A stretch of DNA of 64,000 nucleotides from Paraburkholderia sp. NMBU_R16 (lineage in GTDB: Bacteria; Pseudomonadota; Gammaproteobacteria; Burkholderiales; Burkholderiaceae), in NCBI RefSeq assembly GCF_013282575.1, contig NZ_JAAAYE010000024.1:1-64000 (forward strand), read 5' to 3'. The notes below the pieces were generated by a model that saw only the letters and a list, made by a program, of their open reading frames with translations, searched no databases and was not told the origin of the DNA. Below, piece after piece: positions 7,764 through 59,127 of the stretch. How positions within the stretch are numbered: position 1 is the first letter of the stretch; the number at the start of each line of letters is the position of its first letter. The position numbers and the translations under genes were made by a program.

Positions 7764-8275
7764 GAGAAATCCCCAAGGGAAAACCCGATTAATCCATGAG
7801 TCGATGCGCAATGCAACAAAAAACCGACCGCGATGCCGGATCACCGACGCGCGGACGGGCGCCGCCGTCCATTTAGGACTAGGCATTCTTTTTATTCAGT
7901 AACCAGCTAATTCGTTCGCGCGATTTTCGTGGTGCTCGACGCATCCTTGTGTGCATTGCACCAATATCGATTCCGGTCTTTTAAGCGGGTTGCGTATTAC
8001 CGGCCCGATGAAGGTCGCTCACGCCGCAAAGCCTTGCAGTGCGGTTATGCGCAGTGTCCAGCGCACTTGCACCAGTGGCGCCGGGCCGCTGCTTAACGAT
8101 GCAATCGGCATGCTTTAGCCGCTGCGCCGCAGCTGCGACAATCCGTCGCTTTTGCAACCGCACACAAATTGTGCTTGTTCTTTTTCGCGCCTGTTCTATG
8201 TTCAAAACCGTGGGTTTTAGTTTGCCTTTAAACACATAGCTAACCTAAGTAAAAACCCGCATTTGGAGGCAGGAA
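7764..8275. other. Divergent intergenic region
   Basis: About 510 bases between the LysE exporter (minus) and a small exported protein (plus). It must hold both promoters, but no strong -35/-10 pair stands out. A GTG-initiated frame at 7981-8235 on the minus strand has no recognisable protein character. The stretch 8180-8260 is clearly more AT-rich than its surroundings and ends in a GGAGG ribosome-binding site at 8265-8269. Confidence 0.4.
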
Positions 8276-32030: not shown

Positions 32031-32309
32031 TCAGCGCTTGTTGACCGCATCCTTGAATGCCTTGCCAGCCGTGAACTTGACCGTCTTCGCGGCCGGAATC
32101 TTGATGGTCTCGCCCGTCTTCGGGTTACGGCCGGTGCGGGCAGCGCGCTTGCCCGAACCGAAGCTGCCGAAGCCGATCAGCTGAACCGCGTCGCCCTTCG
32201 AGACTGCCTTCTTGATCACTTCGAGAAGCGTATCCAGCGTTTCGCCGGTTTGAGCCTTGCTAGCGCCCGTCTGAGCCGCGACGGCGTCGATCAGTTCCTG
32301 TTTGTTCAT
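32031..32309 (-). CDS. hupA: DNA-binding protein HU
   Basis: A 92-residue histone-like protein that bends and compacts DNA. It starts [11 protein letters not shown], has the conserved [23 protein letters not shown] arm region (residues 45-67, quoted here in part by its key residues R55-R61) and ends with AFKDAVNKR. Length and sequence agree with HU-alpha/beta of beta-proteobacteria. A good AGAGGAA ribosome-binding site precedes the ATG. It is transcribed alone and ends at a clean terminator. Confidence 0.95.
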
Positions 32310-32731: not shown

Positions 32732-34696
32732 ATGACACATCCACTCGTGCCCGCCACCCTCGCTTTTCGCGGCGACGGCACACCATACTCGCCACGCTTC
32801 GACGACATCTATCACAGCGCGTCAGGCGCACTCGCGCAGGCGCGGCACGTGTTCATCGGCGGCAATGCATTGCCGCAACGCTGGCAAGGACAACGCCTTT
32901 TCACGATCCTCGAGACAGGATTCGGCATCGGCGTCAATTTCCTCGCCACCTGGGCCGCATGGCGTGCCGATCCCGCGCGTTGCGAGCGGCTTGCGTTCGT
33001 CTCAGTCGAAAAGCATCCGTTTTCCGCCGCCGACTTGGGCATTTTGCATGACAAGCTCGTTGCCGACACAACCATCGGGCCGCTCGCCGCCGAGCTCGTG
33101 AAAGCGTGGCCGCCGCTCATCGGTGGCGTCCATCGGCTCTCGTTCGAAGGCGGCCGCGTGACGCTGACGATCGTGTTCGGCGATGCGCTCGAATGGCTGC
33201 CCAAGCTGTGGCTGCGCGCCGATGCCTTTTATCTCGATGGCTTCGCCCCGGCCAAGAATCCCGATATGTGGGCGCCATCCGTCTTCAAGTCGCTGACGCA
33301 TGTGGCCGGCACCTTCGCCACGCTCGCCACCTACACTTGCGCGGGAGAGGTTCGGCGGGGGCTTGAAGGCGCCGGCTTCGCCTGCGAAAAAGCGGCCGGT
33401 TTCGCCGGCAAGCGCGAAATGCTCGTCGGCCGCTTTGCGCCCCGCTGGCGTGTTCGCCGGCACGAACCGCCGCTGCCGTTTTCGGTTGTGCAACGTCACG
33501 CCGTCGTCATCGGTGCGGGCATGGCCGGCTGCGCGCTCGCCGAGCGATTGGCCGCGCGAGGGTGGCACGTCACATTGCTCGACCGGAACACCCGAATGGC
33601 AAGCGAAGCGTCGGGCAATCCGGCCGCCGTCTTTCATCCATTGCTCTCGCGCGATGAAAGCGTCGCGACGCGCATCTCGCGCGCGGGCTTTCTCATGGCG
33701 TTGCAGAGTTGGCGCGCGCTCGAAGCGCGCGGTCACGATTTCACCCGTACCGATCGAGGCCTGCTGCATCTGCCGTCCGATGCGCACGAAGCGCGCTCGC
33801 TGGCCGATGCTATCGATTCCTATCGCTATCCGGAGACGTTCGTTCGACATGTGTCGTCCATCGAAGCCACCGACCTCGCCGGTGTGACGCTCAGTCACGA
33901 CGGCTGGTTCTACCCTCGAGGCGGCTCGCTCGATCCCGCCTCGCTATGTGCCGCGCTGTGCGCCGAGGCCGGCACCGCGCTCGATTGGCGTGCGGGAGTC
34001 CGGGTCTCGCGAATCGAACGCGAAGGGTCCGCTTGGAGCGTGCTCGATGAAACCGGCCAGGTCCTCGCCCGCGCCGAAGTCGTCGTGTTCGCCAACGCTC
34101 ACGAAGCGGCGCGGATCGCCGGTCTGCGTCACGCCCCAACACGGATCGTGCGTGGGCAATTGACGCGGCTACCTATCGGTACGCAGCTGCGTGTGCCGTT
34201 GATCGGCGAAGGTTATGCCGTGCCGCTCGCCGATGGGTTGCTTGCGGGCGCAACCTACGGGATCGACGACGCCGACAGCACTTCACGCGAACTCGATAAC
34301 GCGGAAAACATAGCCCGGCTCGCGCAACTCGTGCCGGCGTGGGGAGAGCAACTTGCGGCGCTCGACACATCGAGTCTGCCCAGCCGTGTCGCATTCCGCT
34401 GCGTGACGAGCGATCGCCTACCGATGGTCGGGCCGCTCGCCGATGAAGCGCTGTGCGCGCGGCACGCCAGCGCATTGGCCGGTGCGTGGCCACTCGATCT
34501 GCATCGCTCGCCGGGCCTTTATGGGGCATTTGCTCTCGGTTCGCGCGGACTCGTCTGGTCGACGCTCGCCGCCGAGCTGGTCGCCTCACAGCTGGAAGGC
34601 GAGCCGTGGCCCATCGAACGCGAGCTGGCGGAAGACCTGGATCCTGCACGCTACCTTTTGAGGGCCTTGCGGCGGGGCAGTGTGCAGCCGTCATGA
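32732..34696 (+). CDS. mnmC: Bifunctional tRNA mnm5s2U34 biosynthesis protein MnmC
   Basis: A 654-residue two-domain enzyme acting on the wobble uridine of tRNAs. The N-terminal part (about 1-245) is the methyltransferase MnmC2 (ETGFGIGVNFLATW as the SAM site, and DAFYLDGFAPAKNPDMW), and the C-terminal part (about 255-654) is the FAD oxidoreductase MnmC1 with the Rossmann motif VIGAGMAGCALAERLA near 263. It finishes the modification begun by MnmE and MnmG; mnmG is in this same window at 57163. The ATG at 32732 is chosen because 43 extra residues from 32603 show no family similarity. No obvious ribosome-binding site. Confidence 0.93.
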   Translation: MTHPLVPATLAFRGDGTPYSPRFDDIYHSASGALAQARHVFIGGNALPQRWQGQRLFTILETGFGIGVNFLATWAAWRADPARCERLAFVSVEKHPFSAADLGILHDKLVADTTIGPLAAELVKAWPPLIGGVHRLSFEGGRVTLTIVFGDALEWLPKLWLRADAFYLDGFAPAKNPDMWAPSVFKSLTHVAGTFATLATYTCAGEVRRGLEGAGFACEKAAGFAGKREMLVGRFAPRWRVRRHEPPLPFSVVQRHAVVIGAGMAGCALAERLAARGWHVTLLDRNTRMASEASGNPAAVFHPLLSRDESVATRISRAGFLMALQSWRALEARGHDFTRTDRGLLHLPSDAHEARSLADAIDSYRYPETFVRHVSSIEATDLAGVTLSHDGWFYPRGGSLDPASLCAALCAEAGTALDWRAGVRVSRIEREGSAWSVLDETGQVLARAEVVVFANAHEAARIAGLRHAPTRIVRGQLTRLPIGTQLRVPLIGEGYAVPLADGLLAGATYGIDDADSTSRELDNAENIARLAQLVPAWGEQLAALDTSSLPSRVAFRCVTSDRLPMVGPLADEALCARHASALAGAWPLDLHRSPGLYGAFALGSRGLVWSTLAAELVASQLEGEPWPIERELAEDLDPARYLLRALRRGSVQPS

Positions 34697-34749
34697 ACCT
34701 GCAGTGAAGCCCGCGATCTCGGACGCAGACGGAATCCGACGAGAGCGAG

Positions 34750-34775
34750 CTTATCCACCGAGAGCTGTGGATAAG
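34750..34775. promoter_or_regulatory. Two DnaA boxes in inverted orientation
   Basis: CTTATCCAC, eight bases, GTGGATAAG: a perfect 9-bp inverted repeat. It contains TTATCCACC (34751-34759, one mismatch to the DnaA box) and TGTGGATAA (34766-34774, exact on the minus strand). Confidence 0.65.
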
Positions 34776-34945
34776 CCGTTGAAGCCGACATGAAATGGCT
34801 GTGAACGGCGCGTGGACGTAAACGGGACAACTTGCCGATTCGGCAGAAGCGTTGAAAGTTGTTCTCGGAAACGGCCGTCGTCCGCACATGCTGCCCGTGC
34901 GGTTATGCGGTCGACAACTGTTTGATTCGTCTCGGTAAACGGGTG

Positions 34946-35012
34946 TTATCCACAGAAATGGGCGGGCTTTGTTAACTGCTACTACTTGTATACATACGTA
35001 AACCTGTAAACC
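34946..35012 (+). repeat. Origin-like inverted repeat, left copy
   Basis: Starts with an exact DnaA box TTATCCACA, followed by the GC-rich GGGCGGGC, then GTTAAC (34971-34976), CTACTAC (34979-34985), GTATAC (34988-34993) and a GTAAACC tail. About 34 of the first 42 bases match the reverse complement of 37946-37905. The order DnaA box, GC-rich spacer, CTA/CTT trinucleotides is that of the basal unwinding element defined in Bacillus subtilis oriC. Confidence 0.65.
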
Positions 35013-35470
35013 CTAGAGGCACGCGTGCCGCTGCAGGAAACGACGAGCCGCAGGGGTGCAATATCGACCGCAACCATCGGATGAATTTTCCTGTTCGGTT
35101 CTCGTTGACGATCATTTCTACCGAATTGACAGCCGTTCGATGTGGATTCGTTCCAAATCGAGCAAGCTGTGGCACAATCCGCGTTTCTTCCAGCATGAGT
35201 TGAGCGTTGGCGAATCGAGGCACCACTCGCCAACGGAACGGCGCCAGCCGAATCGGAATCACAGACGAGAGCGGCAGCGTCCCGTCCTAATTGTCCCGCC
35301 GGGGAGCGAGCTCGCCGGCACACCGTCGGTGCGCGCGGCTCGAAGCCCAGCGCCCGCGACCCTCATCGAACCCGCCGGCGCGGTGCGCCGGTTCGGCAAA
35401 TACACAGATCCGACATGCCGCTTCGTGCCTCTGACGCGGAGCGGACTGTCCGTAAAGGAGAAGCTATCTC

Positions 35471-36673
35471 ATGAAATCGGCGTTTTCCTTCCTTCCGAGC
35501 TGGCCGTTCGCGACGAATGCGGTCTTCTGGGCAGGACTCGCCTTGCTCGTCGCGGGGCTCTGCGGCGAGCTCTGCTATCGCGCATGGCGCCTGCCGCGGA
35601 TTTCGGGCTATGCGGTCATCGGCCTGATCGCCGGTTCGGCCGGGGTCGGCGCCATCGATGCCGGCATGGGCGCGACGTCGCGGCTTTTACTCGACGTCGC
35701 ACTGGGCCTGCTGTTGTTCGAACTGGGCAGCCGTCTCGATCTTCGGTGGATTCGCCGTAACCCATGGCTCATCGCCTCGAGCCTCGCCGAGGCGACGCTC
35801 ACCTTCGCCCTCGTGCTGATCGTCTTGTTGTTCGCCAAGGTGGCGCCGCCCGTCGCAACGGTGTTGGCCGCCATTTCGATGTCGACTTCGCCTGCCATGG
35901 TGATTCAGCTCAAGACGGAGTTGCGCGCGGAAGGGCAGGTGACGCAGCGGCTTCTCACGTTGACGGCGCTCAACAGCATGTATGCGGTCGTCGTCGAAAA
36001 GCTCGTCTCGAGCTGGCTGCACCAGGAAGTGTACGGAAACGTTTTTGCCACGATCATCCAGCCGGTCTATCTGCTTGTCGGCTCGCTCGTCGTCGCCTAT
36101 CTCCTCGCGCGCGCCTGCATGTTCTTTTTCAAACGCATGAACATGCAGGACGAGCATTCGTTCGTTGCGCTGTTCGGCCTCGTACTGCTTGCGATCGCGA
36201 TCGCGAATATTTTCAAGCTTTCGACGATCCTCAGCCTCCTGGCCGCCGGCATCATCGTCAAAAACCTCGAGCAGAAGCCGCAACTGTGGCCTCAGCATTT
36301 CGGCACGGCCGGATGGCTGCTGACGGTGATTCTCTTCGTGCTGACGCTGACTTCGTTCGAGTGGCACGATATCGTGCTCGGTGGCGTGGCGGCGCTCGGC
36401 CTCATCGTCGCGCGCTTCGTTGCGAAGCTCGTCGGCGTGCTGGCGTTCGCGAAACCGAGCGGTCTGGGGTGGAACCAGGGCATCGCGCTCGGGGTCTCGC
36501 TCGCGCCGATGTCGGCGCTTGCCTACCTGCTGGCCGACGACACTTATCAGCTCTACCCGCAGTTCGATCCGACGCTGCGTGCCATCGTCATGTGTTCGAT
36601 CGTGGTGCTGCAGATCGTGGGACCGTGGATCGTCTACCGCAGCCTGACGCTCGTCGGCGAGCGCCGCGAGTAA
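35471..36673 (+). CDS. Monovalent cation:proton antiporter (CPA2 / KefB-like membrane domain)
   Basis: A 400-residue polytopic membrane protein of the Na+/H+ exchanger (CPA2) fold, with about twelve hydrophobic segments and the family-like GLLLFELGSRLDLRW motif near residue 80 and AISMSTSPAMVIQLKTEL near 140, where Thr-Ser-Pro replaces the classic Asp-containing pocket in part. It lacks the cytoplasmic TrkA-N domain of full-length KefB/KefC, so it is membrane domain only. The ATG at 35471 follows AAAGGAGAAGC. It and the next gene form a pair enclosed by the two DnaA-box regions. Confidence 0.8.
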   Translation: MKSAFSFLPSWPFATNAVFWAGLALLVAGLCGELCYRAWRLPRISGYAVIGLIAGSAGVGAIDAGMGATSRLLLDVALGLLLFELGSRLDLRWIRRNPWLIASSLAEATLTFALVLIVLLFAKVAPPVATVLAAISMSTSPAMVIQLKTELRAEGQVTQRLLTLTALNSMYAVVVEKLVSSWLHQEVYGNVFATIIQPVYLLVGSLVVAYLLARACMFFFKRMNMQDEHSFVALFGLVLLAIAIANIFKLSTILSLLAAGIIVKNLEQKPQLWPQHFGTAGWLLTVILFVLTLTSFEWHDIVLGGVAALGLIVARFVAKLVGVLAFAKPSGLGWNQGIALGVSLAPMSALAYLLADDTYQLYPQFDPTLRAIVMCSIVVLQIVGPWIVYRSLTLVGERRE

Positions 36674-36760
36674 GCGCCGCTGCGCCCGGCGCGCCGGCGT
36701 CCGGGTTGCGCTGCACGCCGCATCTTTTGCTCGTATCTGCCCGCATAACAGGACACGCAC

Positions 36761-37879
36761 ATGGCACTCGAAACCTTTGTCAATTCCAAGCCTTTCACAT
36801 TCGGCGTCGAGCTCGAGATCCAGGTCGTCAATACGCACGACTACGATCTGACCAAAGCGGCGTCGGACCTCATGCGCCTCGTCAAGGATTACAAAGGCCC
36901 GGGCAACATCACGCCCGAGATCACGGAAAGCATGATCGAGCTTTCGACCGGCATTTGCACCTCGCATGAAGAGGCGCTCGCGCAGCTGCGCTCGATCCGG
37001 GACACGCTCGTCGCGGCGGCCGATCATCTCAACGTCGGTCTTTGCGGGGGCGGCACGCACGCGTTCCAGCAATGGAGCGAACGGCAAATTTTCGATGCGC
37101 CGCGTTTTCAATATCTGTCCGAACTCTACGGGTACCTCGCAAAGCAGTTCACGGTTTTCGGCCAACACGTGCACATCGGCTGCCCCGATCCTGACAGTGC
37201 GCTCTTTCTGTTGCACTCGATGTCGCGCTTCATCCCGCATTTCATCGCGCTTTCGGCATCGTCGCCGTATGTGCAGGGTGTCGATACCGGGTTTCATTCG
37301 GCCCGCCTGAACTCGGTATTCGCATTCCCGCTGTCGGGGCGCGCGCCGTTCGTGCTGACCTGGGATGCCTTCGAAGAATATTTTTCGAAGATGGTCGCGA
37401 CAGGCGTCGTCAACAGCATGAAGGATTTTTACTGGGACATCCGGCCTAAGCCCGGTTACGGCACCATCGAGGTGCGGGTGATGGACACGCCGCTATCGGT
37501 CGATCGGGCTGCGGCGATCGCCTGCTATATCCAGACGCTCGCGCGTCACTTGCTCACGGACAAACCGTTCATTCCGAAAGAGGACGACTACCTCGTTTAT
37601 ACGTTCAACCGTTTCGAGGCGTGCCGCTTCGGATTGGGCGGCACCTGCATCAATCCGCAAACCGGCGAACGACGCACGATATTCGAAGATATCCTGCAAA
37701 CGCTCGATGTCATTGCGCCGCATGCGCGCGCACTTCAATCGACGGCCGCGCTCAACGAAATCGCCGCAATCGCCACCGGGCAAGTGAACGATGCCGCGTG
37801 GCTGCGCGACGTGGCATCGAAAGAAAAGTCGCTGCACGAAGTTGTCCGCCAGCAATGCATCCAGTGGCGCAGTGTTTAG
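36761..37879 (+). CDS. YbdK-type carboxylate-amine ligase (glutamate-cysteine ligase 2 family)
   Basis: A 372-residue cytoplasmic enzyme of the GCS2 family. Family features are seen: [10 protein letters not shown] near residue 12, [13 protein letters not shown] near 50, the [10 protein letters not shown] block near 140, and [17 protein letters not shown] near 225. E. coli YbdK has weak glutamate-cysteine ligase activity; the true substrates in this group are mostly unknown. gshA at 12270 already provides the standard reaction, so a different amide bond is likely. The stop codon touches the right copy of the origin-like inverted repeat. Confidence 0.88.
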
Positions 37880-37946
37880 GTTTACCGTGGTGACTCGTAT
37901 ACAAACGTAGTAGTAGTTAACAAGCGACGCTCATTTCTGTGGACAA
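37879..37946 (-). repeat. Origin-like inverted repeat, right copy
   Basis: Read on the minus strand: TTGTCCACA (one mismatch to the DnaA box, 37946-37938), a GC-rich stretch, GTTAAC (37921-37916), CTACTACTAC (37916-37907), GTATAC (37902-37897) and GGTAAACC. It is the inverted counterpart of 34946-35012, about 2.9 kb away, so the two point towards each other. Confidence 0.65.
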
Positions 37947-38420
37947 CCTCGATTTTGCGTGCGGTCTCAAGGGGATAGCGTTGCAATAACCGGGTGGACG
38001 AGCGGTGCGCAGCGCTTTTGGTCTGCAGATAACTTTGGCGCAATTTCTTAGGCGGCAAGGTTATCAAGAAAGACGCCACAATCGGCCAGCACGGTTATAC
38101 AAACGTTATCCACAGCTTGGTTGCCAATACGTGGCTGTGCGGTCGGCTTTACTCGCTTAAAATGGCGCGTTCGTCGCTTTGGACCGATATGGCGTCATAA
38201 GCTCGAACGGCGCATCGGCATGCTGTGGCGGCACGTTTTCGCCGATCGTCGCGAAAATGGGCGTTTTTTCCGCGTCCTGTCGCGAAGTATCGAAGAGTAA
38301 AATCAGTTGGCCCCAAGAGAGGGGGCGGGTCGTCCCACGGAAGGTTGCGGCGTGTCGAGAGGCACTGCGCGCGCGTAACCGGATCGGCAGCGGCAATGCT
38401 GTCACTGGCGAAAGCGAACA
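37880..38420. other. Right intergenic arm of the putative replication origin
   Basis: About 540 gene-free bases. Besides the repeat at 37879-37946 it contains an exact DnaA box TTATCCACA at 38106-38114 and weaker look-alikes (TTATACAAA nearby, TTATCTGCA on the minus strand near 38030). Bases 37890-38170 are AT-richer than the flanks. The final 250 bases must hold the promoter of the MarR gene; no strong hexamers stand out. Confidence 0.55.
38106..38114 (+). promoter_or_regulatory. DnaA box
   Basis: Exact TTATCCACA, preceded by ACAAACG, in the AT-rich right arm. Confidence 0.65.
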
Positions 38421-39071
38421 ATGACTATGAGTGAAGGTGTTTTTACAGAACGGGCGAGTGGGCGCGTGACCCACAGCCTGTTACGGTTGGGCACGGCAAT
38501 GCGCAGCCAGGCGTGGGAATGGGCTGAAAGTGTGGGACTCACGCCGACGCAAGGCGAAATCCTCATGCTGCTCATGCAGCGCAAGGCGCCGCTGCGCCTT
38601 GGCGAGATCGCGCGCGAAACGGCGCTGACGGCCGCCACGACGAGCGATGCGGTGAGCACGCTGGAGGCGAAAGGGCTGATCGAAAAGCGGCGTGCGCTCG
38701 ACGATGGCCGCGCACTGGCGGTTCGCTTGACGGCGCGGGGCCGTACGGCGGCCAAGCGGGCGCAGCAGTGGCCGGAATTTCTGAATTCGGCGGTCGGCAA
38801 ACTGGCCGACGACGAACAGGCCGTGTTTTACCGTACGCTGCTCAAGATGATTCGTCATCTGGAGGTGCAAGGCGACATGCCCGCGCATCGGATGTGCATG
38901 ACATGCTGCCACCTCGCCGCGAGCAAGAACCCGAAGAAGACGCCGCATCGATGCACTGCGTTCGGGCAGGACATCGGCGACATCAATCTACGCCTCGATT
39001 GCGAGCGCCACGAACTGGCCGATTTGCCCACGCAGAAGAAGATCTGGAAGATCTTCGCGCAACAGACCTGA
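38421..39071 (+). CDS. MarR-family regulator with Cys/His-rich C-terminal tail
   Basis: A 216-residue transcription factor. Residues about 15-145 form a MarR winged helix: LTPTQGEILMLLMQ, the recognition region LTAATTSDAVSTLEAKGLIEKRR and the wing DDGRALAVRLTARGR. Beyond residue 150 comes an unusual extension with C159, C162, C163, H164, H176, C178, C194 and H197 (CMTCCH ... HRC ... DCERH), which looks like a metal or iron-sulfur site or a redox switch. Standard MarR proteins end near residue 150. ATG at 38427 is an alternative start. It is first gene to the right of the origin-like region and appears to be monocistronic. Confidence 0.85.
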   Translation: MTMSEGVFTERASGRVTHSLLRLGTAMRSQAWEWAESVGLTPTQGEILMLLMQRKAPLRLGEIARETALTAATTSDAVSTLEAKGLIEKRRALDDGRALAVRLTARGRTAAKRAQQWPEFLNSAVGKLADDEQAVFYRTLLKMIRHLEVQGDMPAHRMCMTCCHLAASKNPKKTPHRCTAFGQDIGDINLRLDCERHELADLPTQKKIWKIFAQQT

Positions 39072-39369
39072 CAGACTTCGCGCGGCGAGGCTTCTCGCGC
39101 GGCGCGCTCGAGCCCGGCGATTATGGCCCGCGGTGGTCCGTTTCCCGTTTTATTGCGGACAACGTTGAACGAAGATGTTGTCAACGTGTACGATTTCGCT
39201 TTGTGACGTGTGTCACGTCGTGTGTCGACGCGGCGCCTATTTGGGCGCCGCGTTTCATATCGATCGCTGTTCTGGTCCCACCAGCGATCCCGTGATCGAA
39301 AATGCTCGCATAGGCGGCGACGCTCCCGCGCCGCGATGGCGACATGCAAGCTATTCAGAGGATTCGTCG
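39072..39369. other. Intergenic region before the SET gene
   Basis: 298 bases. Contains the palindrome GTGAC-GTGT-GTCAC at about 39203-39216, a possible operator, and a strong hairpin at 39228-39253 followed by TTT that may terminate the MarR transcript. A promoter for the SET gene was not recognised. Confidence 0.4.
39228..39255 (+). terminator. Strong GC hairpin, probable terminator
   Basis: ACGCGGCGCC, six-base loop, GGCGCCGCGT followed by TTT. Ten perfect base pairs; a short U-tract. Confidence 0.5.
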
Positions 39370-39831
39370 ATGAGTTCACGCAAGTTGGTCGTGCGCCGCT
39401 CGGGGGTGCATGGCAAGGGGGTTTTTGCCGCTCAACCGCTCAGGGCTGGCGAGCGCCTGCTCGAATACAAAGGGCAACGGATCTCATGGAAAGAGGCGGT
39501 GCGCCGGCATCCGCACAATCCGGACGAACCGAATCACACGTTCTATTTCGCACTCGAAGATGGGCGTGTGATCGACGGTAACGTGGACGGGAACAGCGCA
39601 CGGTGGATCAATCACTCGTGCGCGCCGAACTGTGAGGCCGAGGAAATCGAAGGGCGCGTGTTCATTCAGGCGCTGCGCGACATTTCCGCCGATGAGGAGC
39701 TGTTCTACGATTACGGGCTCGTCATCGACGAGCGCCAGACCAAGAAGCTCAAGAAGGAATACGCGTGCCATTGCGGGGCACGCAAGTGTCGGGGCACGAT
39801 GCTCGCGCCGAAGCGAAACGGCAAGGCTTGA
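39370..39831 (+). CDS. SET-domain protein-lysine methyltransferase-like protein
   Basis: A 153-residue stand-alone SET domain. The SAM-binding and catalytic motifs are intact: GKGVFA at residues 16-20, NHSCAPNC at 81-88 and YDYG at 113-116; a post-SET Cys cluster (CHCGARKCRG, C133, C135, C140) with C88 can bind zinc. SET proteins of this sort are mostly eukaryotic histone-lysine methyltransferases; bacterial examples act on host histones or on bacterial proteins. No secretion signal is evident. Its stop codon directly abuts that of the convergent histidine kinase gene (TGATCA), leaving no room for separate terminators. Confidence 0.88.
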   Translation: MSSRKLVVRRSGVHGKGVFAAQPLRAGERLLEYKGQRISWKEAVRRHPHNPDEPNHTFYFALEDGRVIDGNVDGNSARWINHSCAPNCEAEEIEGRVFIQALRDISADEELFYDYGLVIDERQTKKLKKEYACHCGARKCRGTMLAPKRNGKA

Positions 39832-57006: not shown

Positions 57007-57022
57007 TGTTTCACGTGAAACA
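57007..57022. other. parS: parS centromere site 1
   Basis: TGTTTCACGTGAAACA, a perfect 16-bp palindrome identical to the canonical chromosomal parS bound by ParB/Spo0J. It lies between the second Liv operon and mnmG, 3.6 kb before parB. Confidence 0.92.
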
Positions 57023-57162: not shown

Positions 57163-59127
57163 ATGCTTTATCCCACTGAATTTGACGTCATCGTTGTCGG
57201 CGGCGGTCATGCCGGCACGGAGGCCGCTTTGGCCTCCGCGCGCATGGGCGCAAAGACGCTGCTGTTGACCCACAACATCGAAACGCTCGGTCAGATGAGC
57301 TGCAATCCGTCGATCGGCGGTATTGGCAAAGGCCATCTGGTCAAGGAAGTCGACGCGCTCGGCGGCGCAATGGCGGCCGCAACCGATGAGGCCGGGATTC
57401 AATTCCGCATTCTCAACTCGTCGAAAGGGCCTGCCGTACGCGCGACGCGCGCGCAAGCCGACCGCCTCTTGTACAAACAGGCGATCCGCCATCGGCTCGA
57501 GAATCAGCCGAATTTGAGTCTGTTTCAGCAGGCGGTCGAGGATTTGATCGTGGAGGGCGACCGCGTGGTCGGCGCCGTGACGCAAGTCGGCATTCGTTTC
57601 CGCGCGCGTGCGGTGGTGTTGACGGCCGGTACGTTCCTCGACGGCAAGATTCACGTCGGCCTCAATCATTACACCGGAGGCCGCGCCGGCGATCCTGCCG
57701 CCGTATCGCTGTCCGCCCGGCTCAAGGAATTGAAGCTGCCGCAAGGGCGGTTGAAGACGGGGACGCCCCCGCGTATCGACGGCCGTACGATCGACTTTTC
57801 CGTGCTGGAAGAGCAGCCCGGGGATCTCGATCCGGTCCCTGTCTTCTCGTTTCTGGGCCGAGCAGAACAACATCCGCGTCAGGTGCCGTGCTGGGTCACG
57901 CATACGAACGAGCAGACGCACGAGATCATTCGTGGCGGCTTGGCCCGGTCACCGATGTATACCGGGGTCATTGAAGGCGTGGGCCCGCGCTACTGCCCGT
58001 CGATCGAGGACAAGATCCATCGATTTGCGACGAAGGCTTCTCATCAGATCTTTCTAGAGCCCGAGGGGCTGACGACGAACGAGTTTTATCCCAACGGTAT
58101 TTCGACGAGCCTGCCGTTCGACGTTCAGTTGGCGCTCGTCCGTTCGATGCGTGGCCTGGAGAACGCGCATATCCTTCGGCCCGGCTATGCCATCGAGTAC
58201 GACTACTTCGATCCGCGCGGGCTGAAAGCGTCGCTCGAAACGAAAGCGATCAAAGGGTTGTTCTTCGCCGGTCAGATCAACGGCACCACAGGCTACGAGG
58301 AGGCGGCGGCGCAGGGTTTGCTCGCCGGCATCAATGCGGGACGCCATGTGCAGGAGAAAGACGCCTGGAGCCCGCGGCGCGATGAGGCCTATCTAGGGGT
58401 CCTCGTCGACGATCTGGTCACACGCGGTGTGTCGGAGCCGTATCGGATGTTCACGAGCCGGGCCGAATATCGTCTGAGCCTTCGCGAAGACAATGCCGAT
58501 ATGCGCCTGACCGAGATCGGACGCGAGCTCGGCGTCGTCGACGATGCACGCTGGGAGGCGTTCTCTCGCAAGCGGGATGCTGTTTCACGTGAAACAGAAC
58601 GTCTGAGGATGACCTGGGTGAATCCGAAGACGCTGTCCGCGGCCGAGGCGACCGCGCTGCTCGGCAAGCCGATCGATCACGAGTACAGCTTGGCGGACCT
58701 GCTGCGCCGCCCGGGCGTCAGTTACGCAGGCATCTGTGCGCTGCGCGAGGGTGGGTGCGGGCCGGATGCGCCGCTGGCCGACGATCGGGTCCTGCTTGCG
58801 CAGATCGAGGAGCAGATCGAGATCGGCATCAAGTACCAGGGCTATATCGATCGCCAAGCCGACGAGATCGAGCGCAACGAGGCGAACGAAAACACGCGCC
58901 TGCCGGATCGCATCGACTACGCGGCTGTGCGCGGCCTATCGTTCGAGGCGCGTCAAAAGCTCGAGCAATTCCGGCCGGAAACGATCGGCCAGGCATCGCG
59001 CATCTCGGGCATTACGCCGGCGACGATCTCCCTGCTGATGGTTCATCTGAAGAAAGGGCTTGGCCGGCGGCCGGAGCCTGTGACTCACGACGATGGCGGC
59101 CCGAACGCCGCGTCGCCGGCGCGATGA
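57163..59127 (+). CDS. mnmG: tRNA uridine 5-carboxymethylaminomethyl modification enzyme MnmG (GidA)
   Basis: FAD enzyme that, with MnmE, installs the cmnm5 group on U34 of tRNAs. The 654-residue product has the dinucleotide-binding [17 protein letters not shown] near residue 11, the GidA motifs [14 protein letters not shown] near 47 and [21 protein letters not shown] near 365, and the C-terminal MnmE-binding domain. A parS site lies inside the gene and is read as residues 473-478 (AVSRET). It starts the chromosome-partition operon mnmG-rsmG-parA-parB and complements mnmC at 32732. Confidence 0.97.
58581..58596. other. parS: parS centromere site 2, inside mnmG
   Basis: A second exact TGTTTCACGTGAAACA, 1.6 kb from the first and within coding sequence, encoding part of AVSRET. 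Confidence 0.92.

Follow-up and report, generated by a model that had tools for sequence, protein, structure and literature searches.

The locus considered here raises the question of where replication of the main chromosome starts in Trinickia, and whether it starts from one divided origin or from two. The locus lies in a stretch of 64,000 nucleotides (the window: positions 1 to 64,000 of contig NZ_JAAAYE010000024.1, C24 in our numbering) of a genome deposited as Paraburkholderia sp. NMBU_R16, in which two arms without a long gene carry DnaA boxes and enclose an antiporter gene and a ybdK gene. An initial annotation of the sequence had read the arms as the two halves of one bipartite origin of the Bacillus subtilis or Helicobacter kind, with dnaA located elsewhere. 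We conclude that the locus is probably the chromosome 1 replication origin (oriC) of Trinickia and that it is built from two convergent origin units of about 250 bp each, which flank the antiporter-ybdK pair. The genus is most likely Trinickia because the closest named relatives of the window's YbdK (among the best 80 of 585 relatives) are three Trinickia proteins with 91% identity, and because the origin modules of three genomes of the window's genus (G003, G004 and G005) are identical in sequence to those of the Trinickia loci L005, L003 and L004, respectively.

The genome is a draft of 562 contigs without a whole chromosome, and GC skew was therefore traced in relatives as well; its dnaA sits on another contig than the locus. 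Cumulative GC skew of the window reaches its minimum within ybdK (Table 1). In a Trinickia genome with a contig of 4,294,907 bp (G009), a contiguous stretch of 260 kb bottoms at 2,248,932, again within ybdK and 72 kb from dnaA at 2,177,041. Sampling of this replicon covered the 260 kb and 20 stretches of 20 kb up to 3.63 Mb. The sampled stretches show positive skew in the first 20 kb, negative skew between 0.19 and 2.09 Mb and, apart from a value near zero at 3.23 Mb, positive skew between 2.28 and 3.61 Mb. The skew has the same sign throughout the dnaA region and flips at the ybdK locus. The Burkholderia-like genome G021 has its minimum at 87,591 (first 160 kb), within ybdK, and its dnaA at 523. 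In G154 (140 kb), the minimum at 420,319 falls between two copies of the module described below, at 417,411 and 420,594, and a third module, next to a gyrB-like gene at 358 kb, is away from the skew minimum. The switch in strand composition that characterises an oriC is present in the window, in G009 and in relatives, as the initial annotation had predicted for a chromosomal origin remote from dnaA.

All five annotated DnaA boxes were recovered, three of them exact (TTATCCACA) and two with one mismatch. They are the only boxes with at most one mismatch in the 64 kb and are spread over 3.4 kb. Their total is ordinary (5 against 3.39 expected; at least five in 28 of 100 shuffles); the unusual feature is their clustering, not their number. 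The arms and the enclosed gene pair were likewise confirmed, the genes as members of PF00999 and PF04107. An inverted repeat of about 67 bases had been described with one copy in each arm. The repeat is real, with a local alignment score of 59 against a maximum of 35 among 1000 Markov-sampled arm pairs and a score of 24 for the arms aligned in the same orientation, but it is well matched over 50-51 bp and its tail is weak. A general repeat search of the window did not list it, probably owing to its indels. Each copy consists, in the annotated order, of DnaA box, spacer, GTTAAC, CTACTAC and GTATAC.

This arrangement, which we call the module, recurs in relatives. Named loci were taken from the best 80 of 585 YbdK matches and hence represent close YbdK relatives; at least one intact module was found in 77 of them, and counts are given over these 77 since the other three (L080-L082, other lineages, no module seen) were excluded. 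Strict modules in named loci number 99, of which 71 lie on the strand of the left arm and 28 on that of the right arm; they share a consensus of DnaA box, AG or G, a variable stretch of fixed length (13 bases), TTGTTAACT, a repeat of the CTAC type and, in most cases, GTATAC. An outboard inverted box accompanies 69 of the 71 left modules, 180-181 bp away in 66 of them, and 27 of the 28 right modules, every time at 168-171 bp, so that the left and right spacings are offset by roughly one turn of the helix; 61 of 4000 random stretches of 130 bp contain a box of this kind. In each arm of the window, an outward- and an inward-pointing box are 168-181 bp apart (180 bp between their starts in the left arm), and the inner one is followed by the spacer, GTTAAC and three or more DnaA-trios. 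The best trio run begins 21 nt past the box in 92 of the 99 strict modules, with GTTAAC at 16 nt. A DnaA-trio origin type had been suggested initially, and its order of box, spacer and trios holds, but not its spacing. Of the strict modules elsewhere, 30 of 99 pass the permissive NTN rule for trios. An easily melted element adjoins the box: in windows of 40 bp, the left element is surpassed in instability by only 0.005% of positions and the right one by 0.14%. E. coli K-12 has two exact inverted DnaA boxes, R1 and R4, at a distance of 180 bp. Since each arm carries the full set of inverted box, box, spacer and trios with this E. coli-like spacing, each arm resembles a complete origin rather than half of one.

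Table 1. Positions of the origin units and neighbouring features in the window.
Feature	Position	Strand	Remark
Left arm, no long gene	34697..35470		774 bp
Outboard box pair of left arm	34751..34774		TTATCCACC (+), one mismatch, 34751-34759; TTATCCACA (-), exact, 34766-34774
Inverted repeat, left copy	34945..34994	+	
Left module DnaA box	34946..34954	+	R1-like, exact TTATCCACA
Spacer, left module	34955..34970	+	fixed length, letters mostly variable between species
GTTAAC (GTWWAC site), left module	34971..34976		separates spacer from trio array
DnaA-trio run, left module	34976..34990	+	CTG CTA CTA CTT GTA
Three further GTWWAC sites	34988..35011		GTATAC, GTAAAC, GTAAAC; low-stability stretch
Na+/H+ exchanger-family gene	35471..36673	+	PF00999; between modules
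ybdK-type GCS2 gene	36761..37879	+	PF04107; holds the GC-skew minimum of the window, 37,777
Right arm, no long gene	37880..38420		541 bp
Two GTWWAC sites	37880..37902		GTTTAC at 37880, GTATAC at 37897
Inverted repeat, right copy	37897..37947	-	
DnaA-trios, right module	37908..37916	-	CTA CTA CTA
GTTAAC, right module	37916..37921		
Right module DnaA box	37938..37946	-	TTGTCCACA, one base off
Outboard inverted DnaA box, right arm	38106..38114	+	exact; 168 bp from module box
HU-type gene	32031..32309	-	one bracket of the origin interval, with the SET gene
SET-domain protein gene	39367..39831	+	other bracket of the origin interval

With up to three mismatches allowed, each of 11 Trinickia genomes contains a single forward and a single reverse module, always facing inward as first described and about 3.0 kb apart; a reversed-motif control matched in none of 35 genomes. 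The core TTGTTAACNNYTACTA occurs in 108 of 200 genomes of the family, its reversed control in 11. Comparison of the locus across relatives, which the initial annotation had proposed, confirmed the locus as a site of modules but not the pair as a fixed feature: both modules are intact in only 40 of the 77 loci, the left one alone in 28, the left with a partial right one in 4 and the right one alone in 4, and one locus lacks data for the right side. The two clusters of DnaA boxes are thus separate but not conserved together, 32 loci being outright without one of them. Right-only loci are those of three Pandoraea (all three Pandoraea loci) and of Candidatus Burkholderia crenata. In Burkholderia in the narrow sense (by our own classing), an intact right module is missing from 12 of 13 named loci. 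When 73 loci were placed on a tree (L051, L054, L060 and L072, short or cut, were additionally dropped) and partial modules were scored as lost, the right module changed 10 times, 9 of them forced by starred branches, and the left module once; these counts depend on the chosen threshold of three mismatches.

It is possible, though we doubt it, that only one of the modules serves as the origin, the second being a copy in decay or with a regulatory role. The repeated loss of the right module and the near-constant retention of the left one would fit this explanation, as would the perfect left and imperfect right box of the window. However, the core of the right module is well conserved where it is present, as the 28 strict modules show, the right module is the sole one in Pandoraea, the skew minimum is closer to the right arm, and the left box is the weaker one in 10 of the 11 Trinickia genomes.

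A true bipartite origin, in which neither arm would suffice and DnaA would bridge a loop over the 2.4-kb gene pair to open one arm, as in B. subtilis or H. pylori, appears quite unlikely. The invariable inward-facing pair of Trinickia and the 40 loci with both modules speak for it; the loci with a left or a right module only and the 10 changes of the right module speak against it, and G025 and G016 carry tandem modules instead, 492 and 367 bp apart. Because so many relatives have a single module, and because each arm holds a full unit, we favour a duplicated unit over the two halves that had been assumed initially.

Further arrangements were observed within the family. The HU and SET genes of the window are 7 kb apart around the origin and enclose four further genes. 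In the Ralstonia-like genome G034 a related module is situated between HU and SET genes and another one 23 kb away, and the Cupriavidus-like genome G035 also has a module between HU and SET (the HU adjacency was read by eye in both). G021 contains a second, weaker module copy 58 kb away. Extra copies in Paraburkholderia-like and Caballeronia-like genomes (L206-L212, L224) are found next to genes that, judged by eye, resemble gyrB, glmS and lytic transglycosylase genes, approximately 50-295 kb from the origin where both are on one contig, and at least three exact core matches occur in 12 of the 21 genomes of group g21; these copies are possibly start sites or DnaA sinks. The reduced genome G020 has two origin-like units (L282, L283) about 17 kb apart that are identical over approximately 250 bp up to the trio. 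In the small genome G022 (L219:1234-1530), a box and six contiguous trios directly precede a dnaN-like gene, and the place of the origin has therefore moved within the family; a trio array modelled on this unit was found in one of 28 genomes, G022 itself. The simplest history would be a single unit in the HU-SET interval that was later spread by inserted genes and duplicated.

That the modules form a cluster for DnaA titration or regulation (datA- or DARS-like) and that the real origin is at dnaA-dnaN-gyrB is very improbable. In the window's genome dnaA does have a DnaA box upstream of it, and in G035 it has several; a similar module stands beside a gyrB-like gene in some g21 genomes, the G022 unit is placed before dnaN, and the origin of Caballeronia insecticola has been assigned to the dnaA locus (PMC10809759). 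Against this stand the skew of G009, which passes the dnaA region without a change of sign and flips at the ybdK locus, and that of G154, with its minimum at the ybdK modules rather than at the gyrB-side module. Least credible is a promoter-regulatory cluster for the flanking genes, by which conserved GTWWAC sites between HU and SET have been interpreted in R. solanacearum, where they were placed on predicted promoters (PMC5390034), since this leaves the fixed box spacing, the trios and the skew flip unexplained and the modules adjoin different genes in different genomes. We think that the R. solanacearum sites mark the origin or its relic.

GTWWAC sites are concentrated in the origin units themselves: of 16 in the window, 9 are inside the 1315 bp of the two arms. 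Across the 77 loci, their density is 13.25 per kb in the left peak bin and 5.6 per kb in the right one, compared to 0.115 per kb beyond 4 kb, so that the left peak is about 115 times as dense as flanking DNA, and the AT content climbs from 0.37 to 0.46-0.49 at the arms. The 6 sites of the left arm were reached in none of 500 Markov-sampled arms, the 3 of the right arm in 2%. CACAG is likewise dense in the arms, in part simply as DnaA box plus G. A methyltransferase gene of the window's genome (L203) sits between trpB- and trpA-like genes, and its product matches PDB entry 8urk (E = 1.7e-159) and is also close to 9c3u; 8urk, itself named only 'Methyltransferase', is presumably M.BceJIV. In B. 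cenocepacia, GTWWAC is methylated by BCAM0992, the gene of which is located between trpB and trpA (PMC7364216), and by analogy the Trinickia enzyme may have the same specificity. Clustered sites and a matching orphan methyltransferase gene, the hallmarks of a Dam/SeqA-type system, would then occur together.

The methyltransferase was detected in 24 of 61 genomes. Among 28 genomes compared for both features, it accompanies 11 of the 12 with a module match (exception: G020) and 3 of the 16 without (G012, G014 and G035), while 13 have neither. Three enzyme-free genomes have a recognised homologous unit. In G020 the module has TTTATTATC where others have TTGTTAAC (trio run read by eye); G028 has a trio-like run from 11 nt past the box with only one CTA; neither has a GTWWAC site in the unit, and both stretches are richer in AT than the window (GC 0.37-0.46). 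G022 features six trios from 13 nt past the box and no GTWWAC between box and trios. The link between enzyme and sites that these three genomes suggest is weak, as three are too few for proof. Because GTTAAC is found at 16 nt and the trios at 21 nt, as compared to trios at 13 and 11 nt in the enzyme-free G022 and G028, we read GTTAAC as a methylation site that has taken the position of the first trios.

For the duplicated origin we propose the following mechanism. DnaA would bind the two inverted strong boxes of a unit, 168 or 180 bp apart, as it does R1 and R4 in E. coli, and would then extend from the inner box across the spacer onto the CTA-type trios. The extended DnaA would melt the GTWWAC-rich stretch of low stability. 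Each unit can probably initiate by itself, which would make the origin duplicated, not split, and one copy dispensable over evolutionary time. GTWWAC methylation, with one site between box and trios, may modulate opening after replication as GATC methylation does in E. coli. A bolder version, which we consider rather unlikely to hold in full, would have two complete inward-facing origins 3 kb apart, each able to fire and each gated by the GTWWAC methylation site between box and trios. Such gating would be a once-per-cycle control like that of Dam and SeqA, arisen independently in an origin of the trio type and weakening where the methyltransferase is lost.

Several observations weigh against a duplicated origin of this kind. 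The left module box is one or two bases off the consensus in 10 of the 11 Trinickia genomes, the window being the exception. The published search rule for a basal unwinding system asks for three or more trios no farther than 16 nt from a DnaA box; in both window modules the trios start at 21 nt and so lie beyond this limit. DNA of comparable instability is present elsewhere in the window, for instance at 8215 and 9859. A conserved integration host factor (IHF) site as in E. coli was not found among the 71 left and 28 right modules. Skew has a resolution of about 1 kb at best; its minimum lies some 9 kb away from the module in G035 and in the Pandoraea-like G137. In G034, whose skew is ambiguous and was not counted as support, the minimum is at 3,275,127 and thereby separated from the HU-SET module by about 95 kb. 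The averaged profile bottoms close to the right arm both in the 44 loci with an intact right module and in the 28 loci that lack it, and the skew therefore does not tell which arm fires. As to methylation, the enzyme-free G022 keeps two GTWWAC sites upstream of its box, at 54 and 21 bp, and has one further site 69 nt after it, and G034 possesses the methyltransferase but has GTTATC in the GTTAAC position. G012 and G014 have the enzyme, GTWWAC sites and boxes 182 and 181 bp apart, and no adjoining CTACTAC was found in them. A perfect IHF consensus at 34915-34927, the sole one in the window, adjoins the left module; it was rejected as part of an E. coli-like layout, being present in 2 of 71 left and none of 28 right modules (11 of 3080 random windows contain such a site).

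The oriC of E. coli contains clustered adenine-methylation sites (GATC). The window units resemble it in these clustered sites and in the paired inverted boxes at 180 bp, and differ from it in the trio-type array in place of 13-mers, in GTWWAC in place of GATC, in their two copies and in the lack of a conserved IHF site. With the basal unwinding system of the B. subtilis type they share box, spacer and 3'-GAT-5' trios in the right orientation, but the trios are farther from the box, with GTTAAC in between (PMC8287927). The approximate location of the origin is already known in two relatives. In Cupriavidus metallidurans CH34, the skew of chromosome 1 switches next to a stretch of 213 nt that contains three perfect DnaA boxes, at a distance of about 90 kb to dnaA (PMC2864759); the skew transition far from dnaA and next to DnaA boxes is as in the window, whereas duplication and trio are not described in the available part of that paper. 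For B. cenocepacia J2315, the exact origin of the main chromosome (oric1) was left uncertain by the authors, and the replication profile of c1 was published in 10-kb bins (PMC4948915). As BCAL0003 is a MarR gene and BCAL0423 is dnaA (PMC7364216), nt1 of B. cenocepacia is probably the same locus as the origin of the window. The B. cenocepacia origins bear methylated CACAG and GTWWAC, as the window bears these motifs, but unit, trio and duplication are not described in the accessible parts of these reports (PMC4948915, PMC7364216). A literature search, mostly of abstracts and with supplements and subscription papers outside its coverage, found no description of a duplicated origin unit.

Elsewhere in the neighbourhood, two exact parS-like sites (GTTTCACGTGAAAC) at 57008-57021 and 58582-58595 are 19-20 kb from the right arm, with 0.11 matches expected at up to two mismatches. 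No RNA family reaches its gathering threshold within 34600-38500.

A conserved unit that can be named shows where to look for the origin across much of the family. Species with one and with two modules provide a ready natural comparison of redundant and bipartite origins, and the units may represent a second, independent case of initiation controlled by clustered adenine methylation. The locus thus offers exact places at which to test how origins with facing start signals work and evolve far from dnaA.

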